This document shows, piece by piece, positions 20,495-44,432 of a stretch of DNA of 64,000 bases. Origin of the DNA: Hymenobacter edaphi. Lineage in GTDB: Bacteria; Bacteroidota; Bacteroidia; Cytophagales; Hymenobacteraceae. The notes under the pieces were generated by a model. It saw only the letters and a program-made list of their open reading frames with translations, did no database searches and was not told the DNA's origin. Within the stretch, counting starts at the first letter, position 1. Each line of letters opens with the position of its first letter. Location of the stretch: the NCBI RefSeq assembly GCF_003258365.1, contig NZ_QHKM01000006.1:186001-250000 (forward strand), in the 5' to 3' direction. A program made the translations under genes and the position numbers.

Positions 20495-20761
20495 CTAATA
20501 GCGAATGTCCGGGTGCCCCGTCAGGCTGGGGCAATCCAGGTCGCCCAGGGTAAAATCACCAATCTGCAGCTGGCCCTGCCCCGCATCGGCCGGCTGCGCT
20601 GGCTGAGCTGCTTCGGGAGATGGAGCCGGCGCGGTAATTTCTTGAGATACAGCCTTGAACACAGGATTGAAGGCGGTAATCAGCGGAGTGGTAAAGGCAA
20701 GCATGTTGGGCGGAGGTGGTTTGGTACTTAAGGCAGAATTAATGGTAAGGTAGGCAATCAT
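20495..20761 (-). CDS. small Pro-rich protein with conserved C-terminus LTGHPDIRY
   Basis: 88 residues from the ATG at 20761 (a later ATG at 20704 is possible). There is no signal peptide. Residues about 45-60 are Pro/Ala/Gln-rich, and the end reads LQIGDFTLGDLDCPSLTGHPDIRY (shown here in parts: LQIGDFTLGDL, DCPSLTGHPDIRY). The last 24 residues align without gaps to the small protein at 44235-44432 (MQVGEYLVGEA, PDPRLTGHPGIRY). TATTATTG at 20783-20790 is a one-mismatch -7 box about 22 bp upstream. It lies upstream of the TonB receptor on the same strand, 166 bp away. Function unknown; the conserved C-terminus suggests a recognition tag or binding motif. Confidence 0.65.
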   Translation of the reverse strand: MIAYLTINSALSTKPPPPNMLAFTTPLITAFNPVFKAVSQEITAPAPSPEAAQPAQPADAGQGQLQIGDFTLGDLDCPSLTGHPDIRY

Positions 20762-20782
20762 ACGGGGTTTGCTGTATTAAGG

Positions 20783-20790
20783 CAATAATA
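20783..20790 (-). promoter_or_regulatory. putative -7 box for the small LTGHPDIRY protein
   Basis: On the minus strand TATTATTG, one base from TAnnTTTG, 22 bp before the ATG at 20761. The spacing is like that of the box before the related gene at 44235. Confidence 0.4.
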
Positions 20791-20871
20791 CTTGTGCATT
20801 TTTTGGTAAACCGCCCGGCCGGCTCGCCTTTCGGGGCGGCGGCGAAATGCGCGCTTGTAAGCGGAATGCCT

Positions 20872-20879
20872 TACTTTCG
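20872..20879 (+). promoter_or_regulatory. putative -7 box for kmo
   Basis: TACTTTCG, one base from TAnnTTTG, 19 bp before the kmo ATG. A TTG at 20855-20857 is closer than the usual -33 spacing. Confidence 0.35.
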
Positions 20880-20897
20880 GACCCACCCATTCCCTGT

Positions 20898-22295
20898 ATG
20901 ACGACTTCCGCCTCCCCCGCGCCGGGGCTCCCGACTCCGGCCGCCGCCCCCAACCGCCTCACCATTACCGGCGCCGGACTGGTCGGCTCCCTGCTTGCCC
21001 TGTACCTGGCCCGCCGCGGCTACTCGGTGGATGTGTACGAGCGGCGCCCCGACCCGCGCCGCGCCGGCGCCGATTCCGGCCGCTCCATCAACCTCGCCCT
21101 GTCGGACCGCGGCTGGCGGGCCCTGGAGGGCGTGGGCATTGCCGAGGCGGTGCGCGAGGTGGCCATTCCGATGTACGGGCGGGTGATGCACGACGCGCAC
21201 GGCAACCTCAGCCAGCAGCCCTACGGCCAGCCTGGGCAGGGTATCTACTCCGTGTCGCGGGGCGGGCTGAACCGCCGCCTGCTGGAGCTGGCCGAAGCCG
21301 AAGCCGGCGTGCGGCTGTTCTTCGGCCAGCAGTGCCTCGATGTGAACCTGCGCCAGCAGGAGCTGCACCTGCGCGACATCGAAACCGGCCAGGAACTGCA
21401 CCAGCCCTACCAGCACCTGTTCGGCACCGACGGCGCCTTCTCGGCCGTGCGCAGTGCCTTGCAGCGGACCGAGCGGTTCGACTACTCGCAGTCTTACCTC
21501 GAATACGGCTACAAGGAGCTGACCATTGCGGCGGCGCCCGACGGCGGCTGGGTGCTGGAAAAGCACGCGCTGCATATCTGGCCGCGCGGCAGCTACATGA
21601 TGATTGCCCTGCCCAACCTCGACGGCACCTTCACCTGCACGCTGTTTTTCCCCTTCGAGGGCGCCGACTCGTTTGCCTCGCTGCAGACGCCCGCCGACGT
21701 GACGGAGTTTTTCGGGCGCGTCTTCCCCGACGCGCTGCCGCTGATGCCGGAGCTGACCGACGACTTCTTCCACAACCCCACTTCCTCGCTGGTGACGGTG
21801 AAGTGCTTTCCCTGGTCGCTCGAAGGCGAGGCGCTGCTGCTCGGCGACGCGGCCCACGCCATCGTGCCCTTCTACGGGCAGGGCATGAACGCCGGCTTCG
21901 AGGACTGCACCGTGCTCGACGAGCTGATGGAGCGGCACGGCGCCGACTGGCAGACGGTGTTCCGCGAGTTTCAGCAGCTGCGCAAGCCCAACACCGACGC
22001 CGTGGCCGACCTGGCCGTGTACAACTTCGTGGAAATGCGCGACAAGGTGGCCGACCCGCGCTTCCTGCTGCAAAAGAAAATTGAGGGCAAAATCTCGGCG
22101 CAGTACCCCGGGCAGTGGACCTCGCTCTACTCCCAGGTCACGTTCTCGCACCGCCCCTACGCCGAGGCCTGGGCCAACGGCCAGCGCCAGGACGCCATCA
22201 TGGCCCGCCTGATGAAGCACATCGATACCGAAGCCGACTACGACCGGCCCGAGGTGCAGGCAATGGTGGGAAAAGAGCTGGAGCGGGCTGGGTAA
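20898..22295 (+). CDS. kmo: kynurenine 3-monooxygenase
   Basis: 465 residues. An FAD-dependent hydroxylase that converts kynurenine to 3-hydroxykynurenine with NADPH and O2. Seen: the dinucleotide fold ITGAGLVGSLLALYLARRGY, VDVYERRPDPR, GRSINLALSDRGWRAL, MYGRVMHD, the FAD-contact motif LLLGDAAHAIVPFYGQGMNA, and GFEDCTVLDEL. Length and motif order match bacterial KMO. The first 18 residues (Ala/Pro-rich) precede the fold. The ATG at 20898 is chosen because a -7-like box lies 19 bp before it. It ends 7 bp from a convergent PAP2-like gene. The other kynurenine genes are 5-9 kb away on the same strand, so regulation is probably separate. Confidence 0.95.
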   Translation: MTTSASPAPGLPTPAAAPNRLTITGAGLVGSLLALYLARRGYSVDVYERRPDPRRAGADSGRSINLALSDRGWRALEGVGIAEAVREVAIPMYGRVMHDAHGNLSQQPYGQPGQGIYSVSRGGLNRRLLELAEAEAGVRLFFGQQCLDVNLRQQELHLRDIETGQELHQPYQHLFGTDGAFSAVRSALQRTERFDYSQSYLEYGYKELTIAAAPDGGWVLEKHALHIWPRGSYMMIALPNLDGTFTCTLFFPFEGADSFASLQTPADVTEFFGRVFPDALPLMPELTDDFFHNPTSSLVTVKCFPWSLEGEALLLGDAAHAIVPFYGQGMNAGFEDCTVLDELMERHGADWQTVFREFQQLRKPNTDAVADLAVYNFVEMRDKVADPRFLLQKKIEGKISAQYPGQWTSLYSQVTFSHRPYAEAWANGQRQDAIMARLMKHIDTEADYDRPEVQAMVGKELERAG

Positions 22296-22302
22296 CAGGG
22301 CG

Positions 22303-22923
22303 TTAAAACGCGCTGAACGCCAGCCATATCACGGTGCCCAGCATCAGCCCGGCCAGCACTTGCGCGCGGGTGTGGGCGCGCAGCTGCAGCCGGGCCCAGC
22401 CCACGGCCGCAGCCAGCAGTAGTACGGCCAGCAAGGTGAGCGGGGCGGCGCTGCCCCTTCCCGGGGCCGTCAGCAGCCACAGGCCTAGCCCGACGGCCCC
22501 CCCCATGCCCACGCCGTGCGCGCTGATTTTCCACCATAGCGTAATAAGCGTAGTCAGCAGCACCGATACGGTGATGCCGGCGAACAGCCGACTCAGCAAC
22601 TCGGCCTGCGGGGCGTAGCTGGCCAGCAGCACGGCGGCGGCCGCAAAGCCGCCGGCGGCCAGCAGCAGCGGCGCGGTGCGTTGGCGCCGGTCGGGCAGCT
22701 CCACCGAACTGATGAGGCCGAAGCGGGCCATCAGGCCAATCAGCAGGCTGGGCAGCCAGAAACTCAGCGCCCAGGCCTGCAGCAGCAGTGTGGCCGGTAC
22801 CGGGGCCACGCCAGGCACCGGCAGCCGGCTAGGCCAGCCGTAGCAGAGCAGCAGCACCAGGTACGTGGGCACCAGCAGCGGGTGGAAGACGATGGAGAGC
22901 AGCTGGGCCAAACGGTGGGACAC
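22303..22923 (-). CDS. PAP2-related integral membrane protein
   Basis: 206 residues from a GTG at 22923. Seen: LSIVFHPLLVPTYL near the N-terminus, about six hydrophobic helices, KISAHGVGMGG, and the end ARLQLRAHTRAQVLAGLMLG, which corresponds to the last phosphatase motif of PAP2 proteins. The earlier KxxxxxxRP motif is not clear, so activity is uncertain. The frame is open to an ATG at 23019, but that would overlap the end of the next lipoprotein gene by 53 bp. TATTTTTG on the minus strand at 22929-22936 is a perfect -7 box; it sits so close that the transcript would start at or next to the GTG, that is, nearly leaderless. Alternatively the true start is the upstream ATG. Confidence 0.72.
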   Translation of the reverse strand: MSHRLAQLLSIVFHPLLVPTYLVLLLCYGWPSRLPVPGVAPVPATLLLQAWALSFWLPSLLIGLMARFGLISSVELPDRRQRTAPLLLAAGGFAAAAVLLASYAPQAELLSRLFAGITVSVLLTTLITLWWKISAHGVGMGGAVGLGLWLLTAPGRGSAAPLTLLAVLLLAAAVGWARLQLRAHTRAQVLAGLMLGTVIWLAFSAF

Positions 22924-22928
22924 AGCGG

Positions 22929-22936
22929 CAAAAATA
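22929..22936 (-). promoter_or_regulatory. -7 box TATTTTTG upstream of the PAP2-like gene
   Basis: Exact TAnnTTTG on the minus strand, 6 bp before the GTG. Either the mRNA is nearly leaderless, or the match is chance inside a longer coding region. Confidence 0.35.
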
Positions 22937-22966
22937 GACGTTGCCGCGGGCCGCTGCGTCAGTCCA

Positions 22967-23470
22967 TTACATTCCTGGCAAGAGGCGTAGCCGGAAGCGG
23001 GAATCGGCATTGCTAACACCCAGCCGGTAAGCGGGAGTTAAAAAGAGGCGAGTGCGCCAGCCCGCACTTGCCGGGCGGTATTGCAAGTGAAAACGCAGCG
23101 TGTCTTGTGAGGTATAATCGACCAAGCTGATGAGCAGGGGCTGCCCGGTCCAGAAGAACGGTGCGGTGGTATCGGCCGACCAGGTGCCGGATGGGGATGG
23201 TGCGACTCCCGGTCGTTGCTGAACACGGGGAGAATACAAATACTCGGTAGCAGATACAAAATCGACATCGGTCTGGGTACTGTCGCCGTCCGCGGTGGGC
23301 AAGTACCCCGCAAATGCACACCCACGCAACGGCGGTGGGGGAGGCGAAACCGAATTAGAGGTAAAAGCAAAATGGGACGGAGCAGTCTGCTCGCATCCCA
23401 TTGCTGTTGGTATCAGTAGAAGCCCAGTTATAGGCCGAAAGAAGGCTGCTTTTGCGCAGAGGAGTGGCAT
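22967..23470 (-). CDS. hypothetical lipoprotein
   Basis: 167 residues. The N-terminus (FFRPITGLLLIPTAMGC) is a lipoprotein signal with lipobox TAMGC at residues 22-26. The mature region has a polyproline run (SPPPPPLRGC), then FVSATEYLYSPRV, FFWTGQPLLISLVDYTS and LRFHLQYRPASAGW, consistent with a small beta-rich domain. I do not recognise a family. The local GC content is lower than in neighbours. Its end overlaps the 5' extension of the PAP2-like gene. It starts 36 bp after the stop codon of rpoN on the same strand, so it may be read from rpoN transcripts. Confidence 0.6.
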   Translation of the reverse strand: MPLLCAKAAFFRPITGLLLIPTAMGCEQTAPSHFAFTSNSVSPPPPPLRGCAFAGYLPTADGDSTQTDVDFVSATEYLYSPRVQQRPGVAPSPSGTWSADTTAPFFWTGQPLLISLVDYTSQDTLRFHLQYRPASAGWRTRLFLTPAYRLGVSNADSRFRLRLLPGM

Positions 23471-23506
23471 AGATGCGGGGCTGATGCGCCAATCTATTGG
23501 GGCCGA

Positions 23507-25090
23507 CTACAGCTCCTTGCGCAGCCGCGCCACCGGAATGTTCAACTGCTCGCGGTACTTGGCCACGGTGCGCCGGGCAATGTTGTAGCCGCGGGTGTTG
23601 AGCATCTTTTCCAGCTTGTCGTCCGAGAGCGGGCGGCGCTTGTCCTCGGCTTCGATGATTTCCTTCAGGATGTGCTTCACCTCGCGCGAGCTGGCGTCCT
23701 CCCCCGAGTCGGTGGCAATGCCTTCGGAGAAGAAGTACTTCAGCGGGTAGATGCCGAATTCGGTCTGCACGGCCTTGGAGTTGGCCACCCGGCTCACGGT
23801 GCTGATGTCCATGCCGATTTCGGTGGCTATGTCCTTCAGAATCATCGGGCGCAGCTTGCTTTCGTCGCCGTCGAGGAAAAACTCGCGCTGGTAGCGTACG
23901 ATGGAGTCCATGGTGCGCAGCAGGGTGTTCTGGCGCTGCTTGATGGCGTCGATAAACCACTTGGCCGCGTCCAGCTTCTGCTTCACGAAAGTCACGGCTT
24001 CCTTAAGCTTCTTGTCCTTGCGGGCGCCCTTGTCGTAGGCCTGAAACATCTCCTGGTAGTCGCGGCTCACGCGCAGGTCGGGGGCGTTGCGCGCGTTCAG
24101 CGTCAGGTTCAGGTCGCCGTTGTCGTTGGTCAGGATGAAGTCGGGGATGATGTACTGCACCCGGCCGCCGCCGGTGGGGCCCGAGCCGCCAGGCTTGGGA
24201 TTGAGCTTCAGAATCAGGCTGATGGCGTCTTTCAGCTCGTCGTCTTCCAGGTCCAGCTTCTGCTGAATGCGCTGGTAGTGCTTCTTGGTGAACTCGTCGA
24301 ACGTGTCCATCAGAATGTGCTGGGCGTGGTCCACCACGTCGTCGTGGGGGCGGCGGTCCAGCTGCAGCAGCAGGCACTCGCGCAGGTCGCGGGCGCCGAT
24401 GCCAGGCGGGTCGAAGGTCTGAATCAGGCGCAGCACCAGCTCGATTTCGGCCTCCGAGGCGTCGATGTTCTGCGAGAAGGCCAGGTCGTTGACGATGGCG
24501 CCCAGGTCGCGGCGGATGTAGCCGTCGGCGTCGATGGAGCCGATGAGCTGCCGCCCGATGGCCTCTTCCTTGTCGTCGAGGTCCATGAAGCGCAGCTGCT
24601 CGAACAGCGAGTCGGTGAGCGTGCTGCTGGTATCGGCCAGGGGCATGTCGCGCTCCTCCTCGTCGCCGCCGTTGTCGCCCTGCATCTTGTAGCCGGCTAT
24701 TTCGTCGTCGTTGAGGTAGTCGTCGATGTCGAGGTCGTCGGAGTCCTTGGTTTCACTGGTATCCTCGTCCTTGGGCAGCTCGATTTCGGGCTCCGGCACC
24801 TCGTCAAAATCCTCGTCGAGAATGTTTTCCTCGTTGTCGTACTCTTCGCCCTCGGCCGGCTCGTCGGGGGTATCGTCGTCCGCGTCGTCGTCGCCGAACT
24901 CGTCGTCCGCGTCCTCGTCGGCCAGGTCGGCTTCCTCCGCGTCGCCTTCTTCCAGCGCCGGATTCATTTCCAGCTCTTCCTTGATGCGCATTTCCAGCTC
25001 CGCCGTAGGAATTTGGAGGAGCTTGATGAATTGGATCTGTTGGGGGGACAGCTTCTGCGAGAGAAGCTGCTTCATGTCCAGTCTTTGCAT
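23507..25090 (-). CDS. rpoN: RNA polymerase sigma-54 factor
   Basis: 527 residues from the ATG at 25090. Seen: region I MKQLLSQKLSPQQIQFIKLLQIPTAEL (quoted in parts: QKLSPQQIQFIKLLQ), NPALEEGD, then a very acidic stretch to about residue 140 (DDEFGDDDADDDTP), a core-binding region with DPPGIGARDLRECLLLQL, the HTH region DISTVSRVANSKAVQTEFGI, and the canonical RpoN box ARRTVAKYRE at about 505-514. It directs RNA polymerase to -24/-12 promoters and needs an AAA+ enhancer-binding activator, none of which is in this window. The acidic region II is longer than in E. coli RpoN. A 105-bp upstream extension of the frame is rejected because the RpoN fold starts at MQRLDMKQLL. Confidence 0.96.
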   Translation of the reverse strand: MQRLDMKQLLSQKLSPQQIQFIKLLQIPTAELEMRIKEELEMNPALEEGDAEEADLADEDADDEFGDDDADDDTPDEPAEGEEYDNEENILDEDFDEVPEPEIELPKDEDTSETKDSDDLDIDDYLNDDEIAGYKMQGDNGGDEEERDMPLADTSSTLTDSLFEQLRFMDLDDKEEAIGRQLIGSIDADGYIRRDLGAIVNDLAFSQNIDASEAEIELVLRLIQTFDPPGIGARDLRECLLLQLDRRPHDDVVDHAQHILMDTFDEFTKKHYQRIQQKLDLEDDELKDAISLILKLNPKPGGSGPTGGGRVQYIIPDFILTNDNGDLNLTLNARNAPDLRVSRDYQEMFQAYDKGARKDKKLKEAVTFVKQKLDAAKWFIDAIKQRQNTLLRTMDSIVRYQREFFLDGDESKLRPMILKDIATEIGMDISTVSRVANSKAVQTEFGIYPLKYFFSEGIATDSGEDASSREVKHILKEIIEAEDKRRPLSDDKLEKMLNTRGYNIARRTVAKYREQLNIPVARLRKEL

Positions 25091-25189
25091 GGCAGCGGTA
25101 AGCGGTGCGGGGCGCCAAAAGTAGCAGGCGCAGCCCTGCCAAATATAGCCTACTGTGTACTTGAGTTGGGGCGGAAAGGTTGGTAGGGC

Positions 25190-25268
25190 TGTCATGTCGA
25201 GCGAAGCGAGACATCTGGGGCAATGTCAATGTCGTTCACCCAGATGTCTCGCTTCGCTCGACATGACA
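25190..25268. repeat. REP-like palindrome, 30-bp perfect arms
   Basis: The left arm at 25190-25219 (TGTCATGTCGAGCGAAGCGA then GACATCTGGG) is exactly the reverse complement of 25239-25268, with a 19-bp loop. A third, degenerate copy (GAGATGTCTCGACAAGCTCG) follows at about 25291-25310. It lies between divergent rpoN and asnS. It belongs to the GAGCGAAGCG class of dispersed intergenic palindromes and is related in its core to the element at 41685-41850. Confidence 0.85.
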
Positions 25269-25373
25269 ATACCACAAGCCGTCAGCACGCGAGATGTCTC
25301 GACAAGCTCGACATAACGGTCTGATTTGCTCGGAATGACCGGCGGGGGAGGCGGGAATGACATGCAAGCCGCG

Positions 25374-25381
25374 TATTTTTG
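25374..25381 (+). promoter_or_regulatory. -7 box for asnS
   Basis: TATTTTTG, an exact TAnnTTTG, 26 bp before the asnS ATG. There is no obvious -33 TTG. Confidence 0.6.
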
Positions 25382-25406
25382 CCGGCTCAACTTCATTGCT
25401 AAGACG

Positions 25407-26801
25407 ATGTCCGTCAGAAGATCAAGCGTAGAGGCGCTGCTGACCAGCCAGGAGCTGGACCGCGAAGTGCTCGTAAAAGGCTGGGTGCGAACCCGCCGCG
25501 GCAACAAATACGTGCAGTTTATTGCCGTCAACGACGGCTCGACCATCAATAATCTGCAGGTAGTAGCCGACGCTGAGAAGTTTCCGGAAGAGACGCTCAA
25601 GGACGTCACCACCGGTTCGTGCATCGCCGTGCGCGGCAAGCTGGTGGCCTCGCAGGGCAAGGGCCAGGCCACCGAAGTGCAGGCTCTCGAAATCGAGGTG
25701 CTGGGCAAGGCCGACCCCGAAACCTACCCGCTGCAGAAAAAAGGCCACTCGCTGGAGTTCTTGCGCGAAATTGCCCACCTGCGCCCCCGCACCAACACCT
25801 TCGGGGCGGTGCTGCGCCTGCGCCACGCGCTGGCCTTTGCCGTGCACCAGTACTTCAACGACCGGGGCTTCTTCTACGTGCACACGCCCATCATCACCGG
25901 CTCCGACGCCGAGGGCGCCGGCCAGATGTTCCGCGTGACCACCCTGCCCGACCAGAACCCGCCCCTCACCGAAGCCGGGCAGGTGGATTACTCGGAGGAC
26001 TTCTTCGGCAAAGCCACCAACCTGACCGTTTCGGGGCAGCTGGAGGGCGAGCTGGCCGCCATGGCCCTGGGCCAGGTGTATACCTTCGGGCCGACTTTCC
26101 GCGCCGAAAACTCCAACACGGCCCGCCATTTGGCCGAGTTCTGGATGATCGAGCCGGAAATGGCCTTCTACGACCTGCAGGACAACATGGACCTGGCGGA
26201 GGATTTCCTGCGCTACCTCGTGCGCTACGCCCTGGAGAAGTGCCCGGCCGATCTGCAATTCCTCAACGACCAGTACGACAAGGAGCTGCTCACGCGCCTG
26301 CGCTTCGTTATCGACAACGACTTCCAGCGCCTGACCTACACCGAGGCGGTGGACATCCTGAAAACGGCCAAGCAGAAGTTTGAATTCCCGGTGGACTGGG
26401 GCACCGACCTGCAGTCGGAGCACGAGCGGTACCTGGTGGAGAAGCACTTCAAGAAGCCGGTTATCCTGACGAACTACCCGAAGGACATCAAGGCCTTCTA
26501 CATGAAGCTCGACGAGGACGGTCGCACCGTGCGCGCCATGGACGTGCTCTTCCCCGGCATCGGCGAAATCATCGGCGGCTCGCAGCGCGAGGAAGACCTG
26601 GAGAAGCTGGAGCAGCGGATGCAGGAAATGCACGTGCCCGCCGAGGAACTGTGGTGGTACCTCGATACGCGCCGCTTTGGCACGGCCCCGCACTCGGGCT
26701 TCGGCCTGGGCTTCGAGCGCCTGGTGCTCTTCGTGACCGGCATGACCAACATCCGCGACGTAATTCCCTTCCCGCGCTTCCCCAAGAACGCGGAGTTTTA
26801 A
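25407..26801 (+). CDS. asnS: asparaginyl-tRNA synthetase
   Basis: 464 residues. A class II synthetase that charges tRNA-Asn. Seen: an N-terminal OB fold anticodon-binding domain ([19 protein letters not shown]), a motif 1 region ([20 protein letters not shown]), the motif 2 sequence [20 protein letters not shown], and motif 3 [17 protein letters not shown]. The insertion [20 protein letters not shown] is typical of bacterial AsnRS. The ATG at 25407 is chosen; the frame upstream to 25326 is within the promoter region. A strong terminator follows, though it sits just inside the repeat-bounded accessory segment. Confidence 0.97.
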
Positions 26802-26817
26802 GCGCTCAGGCGCTAAA

Positions 26818-26852
26818 CAACAACGCCCGGCTATGATAGCTTATCCTTAGCC
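26818..26852 (+). repeat. 35-bp inverted repeat, left copy
   Basis: AACGCCCGGCTATGATAGC within 26818-26852 matches the reverse complement of 29326-29360 at 31 of 35 positions. It starts 17 bp after the asnS stop codon. The pair bounds a 2.5-kb accessory segment. Confidence 0.7.
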
Positions 26853-26860
26853 AACACTCA

Positions 26861-26896
26861 AAGCCGCCCGGTCACTTGACCGGAGCGGCTTTTTTG
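26861..26896 (+). terminator. rho-independent terminator downstream of asnS
   Basis: Stem AAGCCGCcCGGTCA / TGACCGgAGCGGCTT with loop CT, followed by TTTTT. Confidence 0.85.
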
Positions 26897-26922
26897 CATG
26901 TTGTGGGCATGAGGGTATCAAC

Positions 26923-27042
26923 TGATTTTGGGATGCCCTAATCTGGGCGCAGCGGCATTTCGGCGCCGTGCAGTTGGGAGACGTTCGTCGTACGCGCCGC
27001 GTCTACCGCTTGGCCGCCGGCTGGGCGCGGCAGCCAGGATGA
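26923..27042 (+). pseudogene. IS4/Tn5-type transposase N-terminal remnant (left)
   Basis: A 40-codon open stretch reads IWAQRHFGAVQLGDVRRTRR then VYRLAAGWARQPG and stops. The WAQ-HFG-LGD-RRT-R pattern is that of the DNA-binding N-terminus of IS4/Tn5-like transposases (FGxAxLGDxRRTxRLVxLA). No ATG and no catalytic domain remain. It aligns in direct orientation to the fragment at 29123-29284. Confidence 0.65.
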
Positions 27043-32713: not shown

Positions 32714-33445
32714 TTAGCGCACGCGGCCCCGACCACCCCCGGGGCCGTTGCCACCGTTGCTGTTGCCGCCGAAGCCGCCCTGGCCCCGGCCGGGTTGGCC
32801 CTGCCCGTAGTCGGGGCGGCCACCGCCGTTGGGCTGGTCGCGGCGGCCGTCGTAGCCCCCGCCGCGGCGGTCATCGTTGTCGTAGCGGCCGCCCGGCGCG
32901 TTGCCGCCCTGGTAGCCGCCGCGGCCGCCCGGCGCGTTGCCGCCCTGGTAGCCGCCGCGGCCGGGCCCGTTTTGGGCGTAGGGCTGGTTGTCGTAGCGGC
33001 CGTCTCCCTGACTGCGGTAGCCGTTGCCGCCGTAGCCGCCCTGCCAGCGCGGGCCGGGTGCCGAGCGGTAGTAGCCGGGGCGCCAGCCGCGCGTGTTGCA
33101 GTAGGAGCGGTGGTCGTAGATCCGGCCCCAGGGCTGTCGGCCCACGTACTGCACCACCACCGGATGGAAATAGCGCGGGTCGTAGCCGGCGTAGTAGGCG
33201 GCCGGCAGGGCCGGGGCGCTGACCCAGGTGTTGTAGTAGGGGTCGAAGTACACGTACGACTGGGTGTAGAGGTCGTAGTAGCCGTCGATTTCGGGAATGT
33301 AGTAGTACTGCACCCCGGGGCCGATGGGCGGGCCCCAGGCGGGTGCGCCTACGTTCACGTTGACCTGCACCTGGGCCTGCGCAGGGCCGCCGTAGAGCAG
33401 CGCCAGCAGAAACAGCGGCAGGGCTGATTTGAGCAATGGTTTCAT
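32714..33445 (-). CDS. secreted protein with QYYYxPE/FHPVVxxYVG domain and Gly/Arg-rich tail
   Basis: 243 residues from the ATG at 33445 (signal MKPLLKSALPLFLLALLYGG then PAQAQ). The mature part starts VQVNVNVGAPAWGPP, then PGVQYYYIPEIDGYYDLYTQ, YDPRYFHPVVVQYVGRQPWG. From about residue 135 it is very rich in Gly, Arg, Asn and Gln, with a tandem GRGGYQGGNAPG repeat. The N-terminal domain is shared with the gene at 34403-34882: QVNVN, YYYxPExxGYYDL, YDPRxFHPVVxxYVGxQPW. Probably periplasmic or surface; function unknown. The two copies flank a lipoprotein gene. Confidence 0.78.
   Translation of the reverse strand: MKPLLKSALPLFLLALLYGGPAQAQVQVNVNVGAPAWGPPIGPGVQYYYIPEIDGYYDLYTQSYVYFDPYYNTWVSAPALPAAYYAGYDPRYFHPVVVQYVGRQPWGRIYDHRSYCNTRGWRPGYYRSAPGPRWQGGYGGNGYRSQGDGRYDNQPYAQNGPGRGGYQGGNAPGGRGGYQGGNAPGGRYDNDDRRGGGYDGRRDQPNGGGRPDYGQGQPGRGQGGFGGNSNGGNGPGGGRGRVR
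32887..32960. repeat. tandem repeat inside the Gly-rich tail
   Basis: Two nearly identical 36-bp units encoding GYQGGNAPGGRG, in the gene at 32714-33445. Likely a replication-slippage product that varies in copy number. Confidence 0.7.
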
Positions 33446-35154: not shown

Positions 35155-38253
<3,099 letters not shown>

Positions 38254-38280
38254 CGGCGGTGGCCCTTCGGCCCCGACAAA

Positions 38281-38320
38281 CGCCACCAGCTACCGCGCGG
38301 TAACTGGTGGCGTTTTTTTA
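38281..38320 (+). terminator. terminator of uvrA
   Basis: CGCCACCAGcTACCGCGCGGTAaCTGGTGGCG then TTTTTTT. Confidence 0.9.
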
Positions 38321-38384
38321 TTGCCCCGAATGGTCGAGCTTCTTATTTTGGGCGCTTCGTTCTCTGCCTACCCGCCCACCGTTC

Positions 38385-38792
38385 ATGAAAGTTCTTGTAT
38401 TTCCCCTGCTGCTCGGCGTAGCCGTGGTAACCGCCCCGCCCAAACCTACCCGCTGGACCGGCACGTTCAGCAACGGCATGAAAGGCGCCAAAATCAGCTT
38501 CGACGTGTCCCCCGACGGCAAGAGCCTGTCCGATCTGACGTTTCAGGGGTACTGGCGCTGCGCCGGCAAACTGGAGCTAACCACCGCCGGCCCCACGCAC
38601 CGCTTCCCGATTCAGAACGGCCGGGCCAGCGGCGTAGTCGTGGACCCGCCCAACGGCGGAGCCACCGCCTGGCGCTTCGAGTTCGACGGCGACATTGGCA
38701 GGAAGGCCGCCAAAGGCACGTTTCGCATGAATATCAACGCCCTGAACTGCGACTCCTACAAGCTGGAGTGGACGGCCGCCCCAACGCCCTAA
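38385..38792 (+). CDS. hypothetical secreted protein
   Basis: 135 residues from the ATG at 38385 (a frame open to 38307 starts inside the terminator). A short N-terminal hydrophobic stretch (MKVLVFPLLLGVAVVTA) is a likely signal. The rest, WTGTFSNGMKGAKISFDVSP, DLTFQGYWRCAGKLEL, GRASGVVVDP, WRFEFDGDIG, GTFRMNINALNCDSYKLEW, has alternating hydrophobic residues in short strands, as in a small beta-barrel or lipocalin-like fold. The family is not recognised. Two cysteines may form a disulphide. Single gene between two terminators. Confidence 0.68.
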   Translation: MKVLVFPLLLGVAVVTAPPKPTRWTGTFSNGMKGAKISFDVSPDGKSLSDLTFQGYWRCAGKLELTTAGPTHRFPIQNGRASGVVVDPPNGGATAWRFEFDGDIGRKAAKGTFRMNINALNCDSYKLEWTAAPTP

Positions 38793-38831
38793 TTGCGGCG
38801 GCCCACTCGTTGCAGCCATCGAGTCAGCCTG

Positions 38832-38894
38832 CGCCCCGGCCCCAAAAAAGCCGCCCCGACTCCAGGTCGGGGCGGCTTTTTTGGGGCCGGGGCG
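38832..38894. terminator. 29-bp perfect palindromic terminator
   Basis: Arms 38832-38860 and 38866-38894 are perfect reverse complements with a 5-nt loop; the inner part has AAAAAAGCCGCCCCGAC / GTCGGGGCGGCTTTTTT, so it works in both directions between the convergent secreted-protein and DUF4142 genes. Confidence 0.9.
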
Positions 38895-38965
38895 GCAACG
38901 AGCGGCCGGTAAAGGTGCGGGCGGCCGCGCAGAAAGACTGGCCCTGCGGCGGGGCCGGTCCGGCA

Positions 38966-39616
38966 CTACATCTTCATTTTCTGAAACATATCCAGGTGGC
39001 CCTGCACCACCGGGGTCACCTTGCCGATGAAGCCCCGCAGGTCCGCGTCCTGGGTCATGGTGCTGTGCGCCTTCATGGTGTTCAGCGTCTTCTGGTGGTC
39101 CAGCACCATCTGCTGCATGTAGCGCTGCTCCAGCTCTTTGCCCGCAAGGGTTTTCATCTGCTCCGCAATAGCCTTGTGCTCGGCGTCCATGTCGGTGGGC
39201 AGCGTCACGCCTTTTTTCTTGGCAATGGGCATGAGGTCAGCCGTGGACTTGGTGTGGTCCTTCACCATCATGTTGGCGTGGTCCTTTGCCATGCCCGTGG
39301 CGCCCTTGTCGAGCACCAGCTTGCTGAGCTGAATTTCGTTCTGGTCGCTGTGGGCTGCCGACTCCATGAACTCCTGGTCGGTGGCGTGCGGCGCGGTGGC
39401 GGTAGCATCGGCGGGTGGCATGGCCGAAGTCGAACCGGTGGTGTCGCCGTCGTTGGTGGCAGTGGCTTCGCCGCTGGTGGCGTTGCGCATGTAGTTGTCG
39501 TTGGCCTCGTTATTAGCCGTTTCCGTGTTGTCTGCCGTGGTTTTGTTGTCGGTGCAGGCGCTGGTGCCGGCTAGCAGCAACGCACAACACAGCAGGGGCA
39601 AGAGGGTCTTTTTCAT
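38966..39616 (-). CDS. DUF4142 lipoprotein
   Basis: 216 residues. The signal MKKTLLPLLCCALLLAGTSAC ends in a lipobox TSAC. Residues 22-75 are Thr/Asn/Ala/Asp-rich and flexible. Then DQEFMESAAHSDQNEIQLSK, LVLDKGATGMAKDHANMMVK, DHTKSTADLMPIAKKKGVTL, QRYMQQMVLDHQKTLNTMKA match DUF4142, a four-helix ferritin-like bundle family, often rich in Met and His. The role is unknown; in many species it is stress-induced. The gene 39953 carries a second, shorter-linker DUF4142 domain. Confidence 0.88.
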   Translation of the reverse strand: MKKTLLPLLCCALLLAGTSACTDNKTTADNTETANNEANDNYMRNATSGEATATNDGDTTGSTSAMPPADATATAPHATDQEFMESAAHSDQNEIQLSKLVLDKGATGMAKDHANMMVKDHTKSTADLMPIAKKKGVTLPTDMDAEHKAIAEQMKTLAGKELEQRYMQQMVLDHQKTLNTMKAHSTMTQDADLRGFIGKVTPVVQGHLDMFQKMKM

Positions 39617-39672
39617 GGGTGTTTGGGAATGGTTAGGAATGGCGCGGCAACAATAGGAACTGGCAAATCGGG

Positions 39673-39912
39673 TTAGCGGGCCGAATCGGCGGGCGTGGCG
39701 GCGGCCGAGTCGGAATTGGCCGTCACGGTCGGGCCGGCGTCGTTGTCGATAACCACCGCATCGGATTGCACGCCGCCTTCTTCGCGGGCCTTGTCGATGT
39801 CGGTGACGGCGTCGCCGGCGGTGGCGTCGTCGCGCTTGGCGCCGTCGGAGCAGGCGCTGAAGGTCAGCAGGGCGGCCATCGGCAGGGCCAACAGCAAAGC
39901 AGAGCGTTTCAT
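39673..39912 (-). CDS. small lipoprotein, Asp/Ala-rich
   Basis: 79 residues from the ATG at 39912. Signal MKRSALLLALPMAALLTFSAC, then a short acidic, Ala/Thr/Asp-rich tail (DDATAGDAVTDIDKAREEGG). No domain recognised. It is between two DUF4142 genes on the same strand (gaps of 56 and 40 bp), so it is likely part of one operon. Confidence 0.72.
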   Translation of the reverse strand: MKRSALLLALPMAALLTFSACSDGAKRDDATAGDAVTDIDKAREEGGVQSDAVVIDNDAGPTVTANSDSAAATPADSAR

Positions 39913-39952
39913 AGGAAAGGTGTCTTGGTTGAAGTAAGAAAAGGAGCCGGCT

Positions 39953-40525
39953 TCAAGGCTTGAGCTGGTCGTGCAGCTCATCGGCCTGCTCGTAGTGCTG
40001 TTTGAGAATGGGGGCGTACTTGGCCGCCACTGCCCGGATGTCGCCGTCGTAGGCATCGTCGCCCATGTCGTCGAAATCGTCGCGGGCGTCGTCGAGGTAG
40101 TCGGTGGCAGCCTCCAGCAGGCGGCGGTCAAACTCCGGCCCGTTCAGGGTAGTGAGCTTGCTGATGACGTCCTGCTGCTCGGTGCTCAGGCCTTCGGGCA
40201 GGGTGAGGGCCTTCTGCTCGGCCACGGTGCGCAGCGCGGCGCCGAGGGCTGCGGCGTCGCGCGTGAGCTGCGGGGCCCAGGCGCGCAGGGCCGGGCTGCT
40301 ACCACGGCGTTGGGCCAGCTGACCCAGCTCGACCCCGAGGCGGCTGCCGGTGGCAGCTTCCACCATAAAGTCGGCGTCGCGTTGCTGGCGCTTGGTAATG
40401 TCTTCGCGCCCGATGCGCTGCTCGTTGGCAAACTTGGCATCGGCCACGGGGTCCCGCTCGCCCTGGCCGCATGCCAGCAGCAGGGCAAGAGGAGCGAATA
40501 GCAGGGCACGAACGGGGATGGACAT
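39953..40525 (-). CDS. DUF4142 lipoprotein
   Basis: 190 residues from the ATG at 40525 (signal MSIPVRALLFAPLALLLAC, lipobox LLAC). Seen: RDADFMVEAATGSRLGVELG, QLAQRRGSSPALRAWAPQLT, RDAAALGAALRTVAEQKALT and LNGPEFDRRLLEAATDYLDD: the helix pattern of DUF4142 with fewer Met/His residues than its neighbour. The end (YDGDIRAVAAKYAPILKQHY) is the last helix. It is the first gene of the minus-strand trio DUF4142 - small lipoprotein - DUF4142. Confidence 0.82.
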   Translation of the reverse strand: MSIPVRALLFAPLALLLACGQGERDPVADAKFANEQRIGREDITKRQQRDADFMVEAATGSRLGVELGQLAQRRGSSPALRAWAPQLTRDAAALGAALRTVAEQKALTLPEGLSTEQQDVISKLTTLNGPEFDRRLLEAATDYLDDARDDFDDMGDDAYDGDIRAVAAKYAPILKQHYEQADELHDQLKP

Positions 40526-40721
40526 GGAGAGAGGCGGCCCGGAGCCGCGGCAGTGAACCGACAATCAAGGCTATACGACGGGCGGCGGCGGCGGTTGGAA
40601 GAAGAAGTTCCCGCCCCGGAAAATTTTTTTGCGCGGGCGCTTAAACTCTGACCGGCCGTGTGCTTCCAAGCCAACGAAACCCGGGACCTCACTTTCTTCA
40701 CCGCTACACCGCTCCTCTCCC

Positions 40722-41570
40722 ATGAAACGCTCCCTTTACCGCTCCCTGCTCCTCTCGGCCCTGGGGACCAGCCTGTTGGCCGGGCTGGCCAGCTGCAACA
40801 AAGACCGGGATTTCGGCCCCGACAGCAGCTATTCGGCCGAAGACAACTCCGACGCCGAAGGGGCCGACGCGGCCACTTACGAGTACGTGGATGCCAACGC
40901 CCCGGAAGACGTAAACCGCGGTACCTCCGCGCCTTATGCCCCGGCCACCGACCTGGCCGCCATCGGCAGCGGCTGCGCCACCCGCACCTACGACGCGGCC
41001 ACCCGCACGCTCACCATCACCTTCGATCCGAACGGCTGCACCGGCCGCGACGGGCGCGTGCGCCGCGGGCAAATCGTGGCCGTGTTCAACGGGCAGCACC
41101 GGCAGGCGGGCTCGTCGGTGGTGATTTCGCTGGTTGGCTACTCCGTCAACGGCAACGCCCACACCGGCACCCGCACCATTACCTACCTCGGCAACGGCAC
41201 CTATACCCTTGATGTGCAGGCCGCCAGCGTGGTCACTGCGCAGGGCACGTTCACCTGGGCCTCACAGCGCACCTACACCCAGACGGCCGGCCAGGCTACC
41301 CGCACCATCCTCGACGACGAGTACTCCGTGACGGGCCTGGCCTCGGGCACCAACCGCAAGGGCGTCTCGTTCACGGCCACCATTCAGCAGCCGCTCAAGA
41401 AAGTGTTTCAGCGCGGCTGCGCCCGCCTGTTCGTGGCTGGCACCGTCGAAATCACCACCTCCAAGGAGAAAACCCTGCTGCTGAACTACGACCCCACCGG
41501 CACCGAAGCCTGCGACAACCTCGTGTCGGTGACGGTGAACGGCCGCACCCGCACCATCCGGATTCGCTAA
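40722..41570 (+). CDS. hypothetical lipoprotein
   Basis: 282 residues from the ATG at 40722 (signal MKRSLYRSLLLSALGTSLLA then GLASC; lipobox LASC). The mature part has an acidic spacer (residues 26-60, SYSAEDNSDAEGADAATYEY), then beta-rich runs: CATRTYDAATRTLTITFDPN, GCTGRDGRVRRGQIVAVFNG, GTRTITYLGNGTYTLDVQAA, GTFTWASQRTYTQTAGQATR, and CARLFVAGTVEITTSKEKTL. The alternating Thr/Val pattern suggests a beta-sandwich or barrel. Six or more cysteines in the mature region may form disulphides. I do not recognise a family. A terminator follows at 41620. Confidence 0.75.
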   Translation: MKRSLYRSLLLSALGTSLLAGLASCNKDRDFGPDSSYSAEDNSDAEGADAATYEYVDANAPEDVNRGTSAPYAPATDLAAIGSGCATRTYDAATRTLTITFDPNGCTGRDGRVRRGQIVAVFNGQHRQAGSSVVISLVGYSVNGNAHTGTRTITYLGNGTYTLDVQAASVVTAQGTFTWASQRTYTQTAGQATRTILDDEYSVTGLASGTNRKGVSFTATIQQPLKKVFQRGCARLFVAGTVEITTSKEKTLLLNYDPTGTEACDNLVSVTVNGRTRTIRIR

Positions 41571-41619
41571 TCTGCCGCCTTTTACTACCAGCAGCGTCCT
41601 CCACCCGCTGCCACTACCT

Positions 41620-41655
41620 CAAGCCCCGGCGTCTCGTCGGGGCTTGTTTGTTTTG
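41620..41655 (+). terminator. terminator after the lipoprotein gene
   Basis: CAAGCCCCG-gcgtctcgt-CGGGGCTTG then TTTGTTTT. Confidence 0.8.
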
Positions 41656-41684
41656 AAGGGACGGCAGGCGGCAGCGCCAGCCGT

Positions 41685-41850
41685 CCTTGCGAGCGAAGCG
41701 CGGCAATCCTTCCTCTAATAGCACCGCCGCTACCACTGGCAGAAGCCGAAAAACGACACCGCCCGCACTTGTTCAACGACGGTTTCGGGCGGTGCTGCTT
41801 GTGGCGTTGTGTCGCGAGGGAAAGATTGCCGCGCTTCGCATGACCGAGGG
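41685..41850. repeat. nested REP-like palindrome
   Basis: GCGAAGCGCGGCAATC (41693-41708) is inverted at 41824-41839, and an inner CACCGCCCG / CGGGCGGTG pair (about 41757-41795) nests inside. It shares the GCGAAGCG core with the element at 25190. Region 41571-41932 otherwise holds only the two terminators. Confidence 0.75.
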
Positions 41851-41871
41851 CGCTGCCGCCGGCGCAGCGCT

Positions 41872-41908
41872 CAAACGAAAAGCGCCGTGGCTTGGGGCCA
41901 CGGCGCTC
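41872..41908 (-). terminator. terminator of the protease gene
   Basis: AGCGCCGTGGC-ttggg-GCCACGGCGCT, preceded by an A-rich stretch that reads as TTTTCGTTT on the minus strand. Confidence 0.8.
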
Positions 41909-41932
41909 GGCTGTTTATGTGAGGCGGAAAGC

Positions 41933-43093
41933 TTAGTCGCGGTCAAATACTTTCACCACGAACACAAAGTCCTGGAGCTTGCGGATCTGCTGGGGGCGTG
42001 TCTGGCCTACCAGTTGGTTCTGTTTGGGCAGGTTGTAGGTATGCGGGTGCGGCGCGGCCGATAGCGAATCGACCAGGCGGGCCAGGTACGACGACTTGGT
42101 GGCGAAGGCCGTGCTCAGCACGTCCATCTGCCGGCTGCTGATAACGCCGATGAGGTTACCCCGATCATCCAGCACCGGGCCGCCCGAGTTGCCGGGGTTC
42201 ACGGGGATGCTGATCTGGTAGAAGCCCGTGTCGCCCTCGAAACCGGAGCGGGCACTCAGCGAGCCGTCGTTATATACCTGGTCTTCACGCGGGTAGCCCA
42301 GGGTATAGATTTTCTCGCCCAGCTCGGCCTGCCGGCGCTTTACCGTATAAGGCAGGCGGCCGAAGCCGCGGAAATTGCGGTCGATGACGCGCATGATGGT
42401 CAGGTCGTGGGCCGCATCGGAGAAAACCGGCTCCACGCGCAGGCGCTGCTTGTCGCGGCCCTCGATGATGACCGAGTCGGCCCCGTCGATGACGTGGTAG
42501 CTGGTCACCACGTAGCCATCGGCCGTCAGGGCGAAGCCGGTGCCGCTGAACTTGCCGGGGTTTACGGGCGTAGCCGGCGTGCTACCGATCTGGTTGATAA
42601 CCTGGTTCATTACGCGGCGGTCCTTCTGCTGGGCCTTGGCCAGCTTGTCCACCTTGCTGCTGAGGTACTGCACGGCGCGGGTGGTGGGCTGGGTGTGGGC
42701 GTTCCACCACTGCAGGCCCAGCAAGGTGGCAAACACGGCCAGCACCGCCACCGAAGCGGCCACGCCCATGGTGGCGCGGTGCCCGTGCCAGAACTCGCGC
42801 AGCCACTGCTCGGTGCGCGAGATGCGCATGACGGGCATCTCGGGACGGCCCGTTTCCAGCACCTGCTCCTGCTCCGCGTCGATTTCGGCCTGAATGGCGC
42901 GCAGCTTCTCGCTCACGCGCAGGCGCTGACCGTAGGCGTTTAGCGTGCCGGTCAGGCGCTGGTAATCGGCCAGGCGCTCGGCCAATACCGGGTCGGCGGC
43001 GAGGCGGCGCTCCAGGTTCTGGCGCACCGGCGCGTCGAGCCGATCATTCAGGTAATCGTCGAAGAAGGCGTAGTAATCTGCTTCGGTCATCAT
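41933..43093 (-). CDS. anti-sigma-like membrane protein fused to a trypsin-like (S1C) serine protease
   Basis: 386 residues. Residues 1-100 form a helical cytoplasmic domain (YYAFFDDYLNDRLDAPVRQN, LERRLAADPVLAERLADYQR) with the length and position of an anti-sigma factor, without a zinc motif. A membrane helix lies at about 108-130 (TMGVAASVAVLAVFATLLGL). The exported part is a chymotrypsin-fold protease: H200 in VVTSYHVIDGAD, D230 in DAAHDLTIMRV, S303 in NPGNSGGPVLDD. There is no PDZ domain after it. The end is basic (FVFVVKVFDRD). The gene is 43 bp after the ECF sigma gene on the same strand. Inferred: the N-terminus holds the sigma factor and the outside protease senses or cuts. Confidence 0.8.
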   Translation of the reverse strand: MMTEADYYAFFDDYLNDRLDAPVRQNLERRLAADPVLAERLADYQRLTGTLNAYGQRLRVSEKLRAIQAEIDAEQEQVLETGRPEMPVMRISRTEQWLREFWHGHRATMGVAASVAVLAVFATLLGLQWWNAHTQPTTRAVQYLSSKVDKLAKAQQKDRRVMNQVINQIGSTPATPVNPGKFSGTGFALTADGYVVTSYHVIDGADSVIIEGRDKQRLRVEPVFSDAAHDLTIMRVIDRNFRGFGRLPYTVKRRQAELGEKIYTLGYPREDQVYNDGSLSARSGFEGDTGFYQISIPVNPGNSGGPVLDDRGNLIGVISSRQMDVLSTAFATKSSYLARLVDSLSAAPHPHTYNLPKQNQLVGQTRPQQIRKLQDFVFVVKVFDRD

Positions 43094-43136
43094 AGCGGTA
43101 GGGCGGGGGTGAGTCCCGCCAGGGGAGGGGCGTCGG

Positions 43137-43724
43137 TCAGGAAAGCGGCTCTTCCTTGTACTGGGTGAAAAACAACTTCTTCAAACGCACCAAGCATTTG
43201 TATTTCTGATTCTTGGCGTTGTCGGCGTTGGTGTAGCCGTGCTCCGCCGTGAGCTGCTGCATGGACTTGTCGAGCAGGTAAAACCCCTCCAACAAGGACC
43301 GGCACGGTTCCCCGAGCCGGACCAGCGCCTCGCTCATCAGAGCGAATTGCCGGTCGCGTTCCTCGGCGTCGGCCAGGTCGGCCTCGGCGCCGGTTTCGAG
43401 GTAGGGCTCGAAGTCGTCGAGGCGGCCGCCGTAGCGGCCTTTCTCGGCCAACCGCTTCAGCCACAGCCGGCGGCACACGGCGTACAAGTAGGTCTTGATC
43501 TGGCAGCTCAGCTCGAGCGTGCCCTCGCGGACTTTCTCGTAAAACACCATCACGCCCTCCTGGTAAATATCCTTGGCCTCGTCCTCGGTTCCGCTGTTTT
43601 GCGTGACCAAGTGAATGACCGTGGGTAAATACTGGCGGTACATGTGTGCCAATGCCCGGTCGTCGCCGTGGCGGATACCCGCCAGCAGCTCCTCGTCGGT
43701 GTAGGAAGGTTGTCCCTTGCCCAT
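43137..43724 (-). CDS. ECF-type RNA polymerase sigma factor
   Basis: 195 residues. Seen: sigma region 2 (LAGIRHGDDRALAHMYRQYL, DIYQEGVMVFYEKVREG, CQIKTYLYAVCRRLWLKRL), a linker with FEPYLETGAEADLADAEERD, and region 4 (EPCRSLLEGFYLLDKSMQQL, AEHGYTNADNAKNQKYKCLV). It should bind a promoter of its own class. It is the first of two genes with the anti-sigma/protease fusion. Upstream, GGTAACCC (43762) and GGGTTACC (43793) form an inverted pair that could be divergent -35-like boxes for this gene and for the lipoprotein on the plus strand. Confidence 0.92.
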   Translation of the reverse strand: MGKGQPSYTDEELLAGIRHGDDRALAHMYRQYLPTVIHLVTQNSGTEDEAKDIYQEGVMVFYEKVREGTLELSCQIKTYLYAVCRRLWLKRLAEKGRYGGRLDDFEPYLETGAEADLADAEERDRQFALMSEALVRLGEPCRSLLEGFYLLDKSMQQLTAEHGYTNADNAKNQKYKCLVRLKKLFFTQYKEEPLS

Positions 43725-43761
43725 GCGCAGTTACTCGTTCTTAATGCCTTAACGCTCGTTC

Positions 43762-43800
43762 GGTAACCCGTGGAAAAAATATTTTCTTCACTGGGTTACC
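43762..43800. promoter_or_regulatory. divergent GGTAACCC boxes
   Basis: GGTAACCC at 43762-43769 faces the plus-strand lipoprotein; GGGTTACC at 43793-43800 is the same box in the minus direction, facing the sigma gene. A 23-bp A/T-rich segment (TGGAAAAAATATTTTCTT) lies between them. The pattern fits a symmetric ECF promoter pair or an operator. Confidence 0.45.
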
Positions 43801-43861
43801 TCCCCTGGATTCTGGTATGAACGGCGTTTTTCAGACCAACATTTTCAAACTTACCACTCAG

Positions 43862-44092
43862 ATGACCAATCTGCTGAAAGTAGCCGCCCTGTTCGCCGTA
43901 GTTAGCCTCGCTTCGTGCGGCGGTGACAAAGCTGCTGAAACCACCGAAGCTACGACCACCGAAACCACTACGACCGAAGCTACCACGACGGCTGTAGACA
44001 CGACGGCTGCTGCTGCCGTTGACACGACGGTTGCTGCTCCGGCTACCACCACGACCACCACGGAAGCTACCACCACGGAAGCTGCCAAGTAA
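43862..44092 (+). CDS. small Thr-rich lipoprotein
   Basis: 76 residues from the ATG at 43862 (signal MTNLLKVAALFAVVSLASC, lipobox LASC, then GGDKAAETTEAT). An ATG at 43817 is also in frame but would put 15 polar residues before the signal. The rest is a low-complexity run of Thr, Ala, Glu and Val with TTTEATTTEAAK at the end. No domain. It is divergent from the ECF sigma gene, with a GGTAACCC box upstream; it may be a target of that sigma factor (inference). Confidence 0.72.
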   Translation: MTNLLKVAALFAVVSLASCGGDKAAETTEATTTETTTTEATTTAVDTTAAAAVDTTVAAPATTTTTTEATTTEAAK

Positions 44093-44134
44093 TTGCGCTG
44101 GCTGATCGCGCGTCAGCCACTGTTGCTTTAGGCC

Positions 44135-44176
44135 ACCGCCCGGATTTCTCCTCGGAGAAGTCCGGGCGGTTTGGTT
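44135..44176 (+). terminator. terminator after the Thr-rich lipoprotein gene
   Basis: ACCGCCCGGATTTCTCC / GGAGAAGTCCGGGCGGT (one T-G pair) followed by TTGGTTT. Confidence 0.85.
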
Positions 44177-44207
44177 TACGGGCTTTTCCCAAACGCGTCA
44201 CCGCCCG

Positions 44208-44215
44208 TATTTTTG
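44208..44215 (+). promoter_or_regulatory. -7 box for the small LTGHPGIRY protein
   Basis: TATTTTTG, an exact TAnnTTTG, 20 bp before the GTG at 44235. Confidence 0.6.
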
Positions 44216-44234
44216 CGGCCTCGTTCACTTCCCC

Positions 44235-44432
44235 GTGCCCGTGCCTGCTCCCGCTACCACCGCTCCGCTCACCCAACAACCGCTTCCGTCTCCCCAGCCC
44301 AGTACCCCGCCGCCAACCGTGTCGCTTGACTTCGAAGGCACGCTCCGCGGCCGCGTAATGCAGGTGGGGGAATATCTGGTGGGAGAGGCCCCCGATCCGC
44401 GCCTGACCGGACACCCCGGCATCCGGTATTAG
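44235..44432 (+). CDS. small Pro-rich protein with conserved C-terminus LTGHPGIRY
   Basis: 65 residues from a GTG at 44235, 20 bp after an exact -7 box. The first 28 residues are Pro/Thr/Gln-rich (LTQQPLPSPQPSTPPPTV). The C-terminal part LRGRVMQVGEYLVGEA, PDPRLTGHPGIRY aligns gap-free with the end of the protein at 20495-20761 (12 or more identities over 24 residues). No signal peptide, no membrane helix, no cysteine. Only 15 bp separate it from the end of the convergent BatA-region gene. It is too short and too Pro-rich for any enzyme; the conserved end is likely the functional part. Confidence 0.65.
   Translation: MPVPAPATTAPLTQQPLPSPQPSTPPPTVSLDFEGTLRGRVMQVGEYLVGEAPDPRLTGHPGIRY

Follow-up and report, generated by a model that had tools for sequence, protein, structure and literature searches.

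Do two short proteins encoded at separate places on one contig of Hymenobacter edaphi share their last residues by chance, or do they belong to a family in which the C-terminal end does the work? The question arises from a 64,000-nucleotide (nt) stretch of contig NZ_QHKM01000006.1 (positions 186,001 to 250,000; hereafter, the window), in which open reading frames (ORFs) A (20495-20761, minus strand) and B (44235-44432, plus strand) are both present as first described. The last 24 residues of A and B align without gaps, as a preliminary description of this DNA had claimed; the alignment runs up to a TAG stop codon and contains 12 identities overall, with 8 of 9 positions identical in LTGHPxIRY. 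The comparisons presented here show that A and B are members of a real family of small bacterial proteins that had not been catalogued before, and we tentatively interpret their common end as a docking tail.

A family of short proteins in Hymenobacter and its close relatives

Inside the window, the match between A and B lies barely beyond what shuffling produces (12 residue shuffles over 1019 window C-termini reached maxima of 7/9 and 11/24, and A/B is only slightly above these), and other real ORF pairs outscore it (9/9 and 22/24); the decision therefore falls to relatives. Across the whole 6.04-Mb genome, a degenerate DNA pattern for GHPxIRY-stop matches only the places of A and B, and a profile of 53 C-terminal sequences, run at E values up to 10, adds five weak matches, all at 0.17 or worse, which leaves A and B as the sole credible members of this genome.

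A search with protein A recovered homologs in its own genus and in related genera, and a C-terminal profile was built first from 15 and then from 53 C-termini, with membership in genomes of the same taxonomic family set at an E value of ≤0.01. With the 53-sequence profile, members occur in 111 of the 204 genomes of that taxonomic family (all 8 genomes of the window's own genus, 90 genomes of genus g5, and 13 of genus g6, with none in genera g2 to g4), and many further matches end exactly at a stop codon; the absence of hits in related genomes, which the preliminary description had named as a refutation, did not occur. Beyond the taxonomic family, 291 genomes of the order (searched with the 15-sequence profile) and 395 genomes of the phylum yielded nothing credible (best value, 0.005; partial matches or matches with stops). 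A DNA pattern encoding LxGHP[D/E/G]IRY-stop, scanned against the GTDB species collection, returned 67 stretches, 65 of them from Hymenobacter, Rufibacter, or Sabulibacter; chance alone would yield about 11 matches across all organisms if base composition were even. Of the outliers, one (L170) matches in the last nine residues only and the other (L168) has no in-frame match. The same DNA pattern had no match in the viral contigs of IMG/VR, and protein A (69 amino acids [aa]) had none in PLSDB. So far, the family is known only from Hymenobacter and its close relatives Rufibacter and Sabulibacter.

No described family accounts for these proteins: Pfam holds no significant relative (best value, 0.012, below the cut-off), NCBIfam returned no family for A and B at E values up to 10, and 53 C-terminal 32-mers had no significant match in PHROGs (best value, 0.021). 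A profile search of the PDB gave no significant relative, and its one match, to a loop of an acyl-CoA synthase at an E value of 1.2, was taken as chance. Nor did we find a description of the family in the open-access literature searched. The earlier proposal of an undescribed family is thus borne out by 111 carrier genomes with no significant relative in Pfam, NCBIfam (A and B), PHROGs, or the PDB.

Coding selection on the C-terminus

For a census of the family, the surroundings of the listed profile matches were fetched and classified by their neighbors, with identical last-30 residues counted once per genome; it comprises at least 150 proteins in 111 genomes. Two matches outside the family (L134 and L137) were left out of the analysis. 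All 150 listed members end in Tyr-stop and 123 end in IRY; Gly-7 is present in every one and Leu-9 in 148, although ends of this kind also went into the search profile. The ratio of nonsynonymous to synonymous differences (pN/pS), pooled over 13 ortholog pairs, is 0.07 in the last 26 codons (hereafter, the module) and 0.42 upstream, the starts of the N-terminal parts being of our choosing. In each of the pairs L042/L043 and L093/L169, the module has 17 synonymous changes and no nonsynonymous one. Among 102 sequences (identical last-40 residues counted once), first and second codon positions of the module are fixed where the residue is fixed, whereas third positions, at about 1 to 2 bits, are nearly random, for which reason we rejected conservation of the module at the RNA level. 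Conservation is confined to the last residues, as originally stated, and in place of frequent stops and frameshifts among relatives, the module displays strong purifying selection.

The remainder of the protein drifts but appears to be translated. In 67 pairs of at least 70% identity, 29 of 43 distinct insertions or deletions (indels) within 120 nt 5' of the module are multiples of three, compared with 9 of 32 further upstream; at 75% identity (41 pairs), the corresponding counts are 12 of 14 and 7 of 21. The predominance of in-frame indels near the module in close pairs therefore suggests a tether of about 40 codons that is read in frame. The N-terminal parts of 100 members consist of 42% Ala, Pro, Ser, and Thr, which makes the Pro-rich N-termini first noticed in A and B a general property, and no obvious hydrophobic N-terminal signal was found (a strongly hydrophobic 12-residue window occurs in 5 of 100; no signal-peptide program was run). 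Members are mostly about 60 to 90 residues long, some with GTG or TTG starts; the family is ordinary in size and unusual in the sharpness of its conserved end. Given nearly unchanged last 26 residues and a drifting rest, it is probably the tail itself that does the work.

Four conserved sites and their neighbors

Four conserved sites hold 148 of the 150 listed members, with two members elsewhere. Site A1 (85 members, A among them) is divergent from a FAD monooxygenase gene at a distance of 48 to 282 nt, and a homolog of this monooxygenase adjoins all 85. At site B (34 members, including B), a gene for an extracytoplasmic function (ECF) sigma factor lies upstream on the opposite strand, and in 33 of 34 cases, a convergent gene of the 600-aa type lies downstream. 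Site A2 (16 members) is convergent with a 2OG-Fe(II) oxygenase gene and always accompanies A1, and site C (13 members, in g6) lies 90 to 205 nt 3' of an ABC permease gene whose operon also encodes a family-5 solute-binding protein. Genomes carry A1 alone (48), A1 and B (21), A1 and A2 (16), B alone (13), C alone (11), or C and another copy (2).

With few exceptions, the closest relative of a copy is found in a different species but at the corresponding site (83/85 for A1, 33/34 for B, 16/16 for A2, and 11/13 for C, against 0/2 for the two members elsewhere), and on this ground the copies are best read as old, site-specific paralogs that are inherited vertically and often lost. A recent mobile cassette was rejected, with copies orthologous by site and the searches of viral contigs (DNA pattern) and PLSDB (protein A) empty. 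The monooxygenase and sigma genes are each present in all 28 genomes tested, including those that lack the peptide, and in the latter the module was not found beside either gene. At site B, the distance from the sigma gene to the convergent gene is 504 to 530 nt in six peptide-less loci (L236, L239 to L242, and L244) and 779 to 790 nt in two carriers; in alignments of five of these six loci and of L235, the peptide gene is missing as a unit.

Several individual copies depart from this picture. In one close pair, the module contains a gap whose length is not a multiple of three, so that a frameshift may affect one copy or more. At site A1 of L059 and L060 (genomes G111 and G110), an in-frame TGA is the fifth codon after the usual ATG, and in L059 a Cys replaces a Tyr of the module with GHPDIRY intact; this A1 copy is perhaps decaying, and an A2 copy is also present.

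The features of the two loci are collected in Table 1. ORF A, first described as 88 residues long, was probably drawn too long: in the ortholog L005, the first ATG is missing and a 1-nt gap ahead of the second breaks the frame, and this downstream ATG is common to L001, L004, and L005, so that translation probably starts at 20704 and yields 69 aa. ORF B has no in-frame ATG, a condition shared with 21 other members among the 150 listed (22 in all, 18 of them at site B). A start of site B genes at a conserved ATG/GTG-CAA-TAT block was rejected, and the block may instead be read as a promoter, because the frame is broken behind it in three of eight loci (L008, L054, and L057; alignment read by eye). 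Of the TAnnTTTG-like boxes reported upstream of both ORFs, that of B stands (TATTTTTG, 19 nt before the GTG; also in L023, and in L024 as TACTTTTG), while A has no exact box within 60 nt of a start. Relative to shuffled sequence, such boxes are in excess at site A1 (21 of 85 against 4.9) and hardly so at B (6 of 34 against 2.8), A2 (1 of 16 against 0.5), and C (1 of 13 against 1.6).

Table 1. Coordinates of the two peptide genes, their neighbors in the window, and the 3' element of relatives
Feature	Position	Strand	Basis or remark
ORF A (site A1), probable extent	20495..20704	-	ATG at 20704, 69 aa, TAG stop; ortholog alignment
Conserved 26-residue C-terminal module of A	20498..20575	-	ends LTGHPDIRY
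ORF B (site B)	44235..44432	+	65 aa, from GTG to a TAG stop
Conserved 26-residue C-terminal module of B	44352..44429	+	ends LTGHPGIRY
TATTTTTG, match to TAnnTTTG -7 box, 5' of B	44208..44215	+	alignment includes L023 and L024
TonB-dependent receptor, downstream of A	17695..20394	-	
FAD monooxygenase, divergent neighbor of A	20847..22295	+	PF01494; best NCBIfam match VioC, below cut-off
Anti-sigma-like N-terminus plus trypsin-like/HtrA-type protease domain	41933..43093	-	PF13365; NF052375 below cut-off
ECF-type sigma factor, divergent upstream neighbor at site B	43137..43724	-	PF04542, TIGR02937
Small Thr-rich lipoprotein-like ORF just 5' of B	43817..44092	+	same strand as B
600-aa protein, convergent with B	44448..46250	-	no Pfam or NCBIfam match; stops 15 nt apart
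3' element (site C), examples	L094:10054-10177; L149:6095-6218; L169:7415-7538		plus ten further Rufibacter/Sabulibacter stretches

From its context, the FAD monooxygenase next to A is probably a kynurenine 3-monooxygenase; a kynureninase gene lies near the monooxygenase in L099. Upstream of B, at 41933-43724, the ECF sigma gene is followed by a gene whose product fuses an anti-sigma-like part to an HtrA-like protease domain, and alignments of relatives place a hairpin resembling a terminator (read by eye) between the Thr-rich ORF and the peptide gene. Large proteins without a Pfam or NCBIfam match are encoded at 14716-17499 and 44448-48459 (927, 600, and 735 aa), with homologs at the same places in relatives, and a 36-bp tandem repeat (2.2 copies, 100% matches) occupies 32885-32963.

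A candidate docking tail and its competitors

We favor, though only tentatively, a reading in which the C-terminus is a tail for docking or recognition; its carboxylate would be free, and the tether that carries it would be flexible and specific to each locus. A and B would be soluble proteins of about 65 to 70 residues, probably transcribed separately, whose working part is the module: a strand-like hxhGxYxhG[D/E] followed by LxGHPxIRY, with the exact final Tyr carboxylate required. The N-terminal part, rich in Ala, Pro, Ser, and Thr, would serve as a flexible tether that differs between loci. The module would dock by its free C-terminus on a protein conserved in the Hymenobacteraceae, perhaps by adding a strand to the partner's sheet in the fashion of PDZ ligands, and thereby recruit or inhibit that partner; the paralogs would then be differently regulated supplies of the same ligand. 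What fits a docking tail is the A/P/S/T-rich tether together with a C-terminal end that does not vary and a remainder that evolves faster. The exact C-terminus that a docking ligand calls for is present in every listed member, and the part before the tip, a putative flexible linker on the basis of its composition, appears to be read in frame. TGA stops are rare in Hymenobacter members (4/88, compared with 74/322 long ORFs, kinship not corrected for), as expected if exact ends matter.

Several points weigh against the docking tail. We identified no partner protein, and any such partner would have to manage alone in the 93 of 204 genomes where no member of the family was detected. A looser indel test, over 145 loose alignments, gave no excess of multiples of three (173 of 560 near the module), and the stop-codon statistic ignores kinship. 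Finally, sharp C-terminal conservation fits a precursor or a nascent-chain signal equally well. The C-terminal recognition motif proposed in the preliminary description nevertheless fits the data and may be kept as the best, still inferential, reading.

The main rival, possible but unlikely in our estimate, holds that the C-terminal 9 to 26 residues are a substrate that an unlinked enzyme modifies or cleaves into a cofactor, signal, or antimicrobial, in the manner of a ribosomally synthesized and post-translationally modified peptide. It ranks first because the mycofactocin precursor shares this anatomy and because MNIOs in Hymenobacter recognize a C-terminal motif: excerpts of one source describe mycofactocin precursors of variable length, similar only in their last 23 residues, with seven of the last eight invariant and conservation at the protein level (PMC3023750), and those of another describe ChrH-subfamily MNIOs, some of them in Hymenobacter, whose substrates are recognized by a conserved C-terminal motif with the N-terminus free to diversify (PMC12636315). 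The location of the 13 site C genes behind the ABC permease gene of an operon with a solute-binding protein also speaks for a precursor. In both precedents, however, the enzyme gene is clustered with its substrate, whereas no maturase, and thus no MNIO, was recognized among 20 neighbor proteins scanned with Pfam (the genomes were not searched for MNIO genes), and the MNIO motif CPxCGxG is missing from a module whose consensus ends in LxGHPxIRY. SPASM radical SAM proteins (E ≤ 1e-6) are missing from the window's own genome and occur in 13 of 204 genomes (7 carriers and 6 noncarriers), and PqqD occurs in 31 of 200 (24 carriers and 7 noncarriers, with one in the window's genome and none in Rufibacter). 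Neither tracks the carriers, and with these counts, maturation of the pyrroloquinoline quinone or mycofactocin type by SPASM enzymes was rejected. The peptide precursor that the preliminary description had offered as one option is weakened accordingly, also by the lack of an obvious hydrophobic signal.

Alternatively, the module might act within the ribosomal tunnel and pause termination at the stop codon, which we judge improbable. A conserved C-terminus abutting the stop behind a variable N-terminal part is a signature of arrest peptides, and the excerpted portion of PMC10987492 describes Bacteroidota peptides on which the ribosome stalls while the A-site holds the stop codon. The scarcity of TGA in Hymenobacter members would suit such pausing, as would the frequent C in the next position (45/88 compared with 95/322, again without correction for kinship), but in Rufibacter the deficit of TGA is not significant (1/14 against 14/70). 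Because no codirectional gene directly follows at three of the four sites, a leader peptide is disfavored: sites B and A2 have convergent neighbors at medians of 35 and 16 nt (maxima, 263 and 157), and at site C a terminator follows, beyond which L093 has a same-strand ORF of 188 aa. In eight aligned A1 loci, the gene for the TonB receptor carries a separate TAnnTTTG box, so that A1 is probably not the leader of the receptor. An obvious N-terminal localization signal is also lacking. A broader version, in which the family represents C-terminal signals of a new class made by the ribosome (either a cofactor or signal precursor matured outside the SPASM/PqqD grammar or a nascent peptide that pauses termination in trans, without a cis gene), strikes us as doubtful, on a level with the precursor.

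It is very unlikely that the transcript is a small regulatory RNA of which the ORF is one part. In Rufibacter and Sabulibacter, about 110 nt after the peptide stop at site C are nearly invariant (13 sequences aligned) and comprise a hairpin with a CCCCCC (C6) loop, a U-rich spacer, and a strong terminator hairpin; the element offers no covariation to judge by. Of 204 genomes, 10 have the hairpin pattern (≤1 mismatch), each in a single copy beside the peptide gene, hinting at an RNA function in Rufibacter. But the pattern is missing from all Hymenobacter genomes searched, including that of the window, the end of the ORF displays protein-level constraint, and neither the window nor the element matches any Rfam entry.

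Chance similarity, or an antisense or noncoding artifact, could draw on the shortness of the motif, its narrow lead over shuffles in the window, and the 22 members without an in-frame ATG, but it is practically excluded by profile E values down to 2e-17, presence in 111 of 204 genomes, a pN/pS of 0.07 in the module, and conserved synteny.

Comparison with known systems

The family adds an uncatalogued group of proteins that is easily missed, most members being short and some starting with GTG or TTG, and its clean presence or absence at fixed sites, together with the existence of one-copy species, makes knockout and pulldown tests direct. Among systems that might serve as models, PDZ ligands are free C-terminal docking tips with a disordered linker and a short conserved tip, and the mycofactocin precursor ends in Tyr, as the A/B family does. 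A disordered linker and a short conserved C-terminal tip are likewise described for SSB-Ct in the portion of PMC10164576 consulted. In contrast to SSB-Ct and PDZ ligands, the A/B family has no known folded N-terminal domain, and its sequence is unrelated.

The arrest peptides of Bacteroidota resemble the family in being small ORFs of the same phylum with a C-terminus conserved up to the stop; as presented in excerpts of PMC10987492, however, they precede sec genes, an N-terminal localization signal was the criterion for their selection, and their last residue is Pro, none of which applies to A/B. The substrates of ChrH-subfamily MNIOs (DUF692), among them HymA of Hymenobacter, also combine a conserved C-terminal motif with a variable N-terminus, but the excerpted parts of PMC12636315 give that motif as CPxCGxG, with an MNIO gene alongside, in place of LxGHPxIRY and scanned neighbors among which no MNIO was recognized. 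The mycofactocin precursor (TIGR03969), to judge from the parts of PMC3023750 used here, is similarly small, scattered in length, and often unannotated, with the same concentration of similarity in the last residues; the A/B family differs in sequence (no TIGR03969 match in the NCBIfam scan of A and B), has no recognized adjacent radical-SAM maturase, and forms several site-specific paralogs. Its end is nonetheless conserved about as tightly as that of the mycofactocin precursor, where, according to the same excerpts, such a pattern led to the proposal of a new cofactor (PMC3023750).

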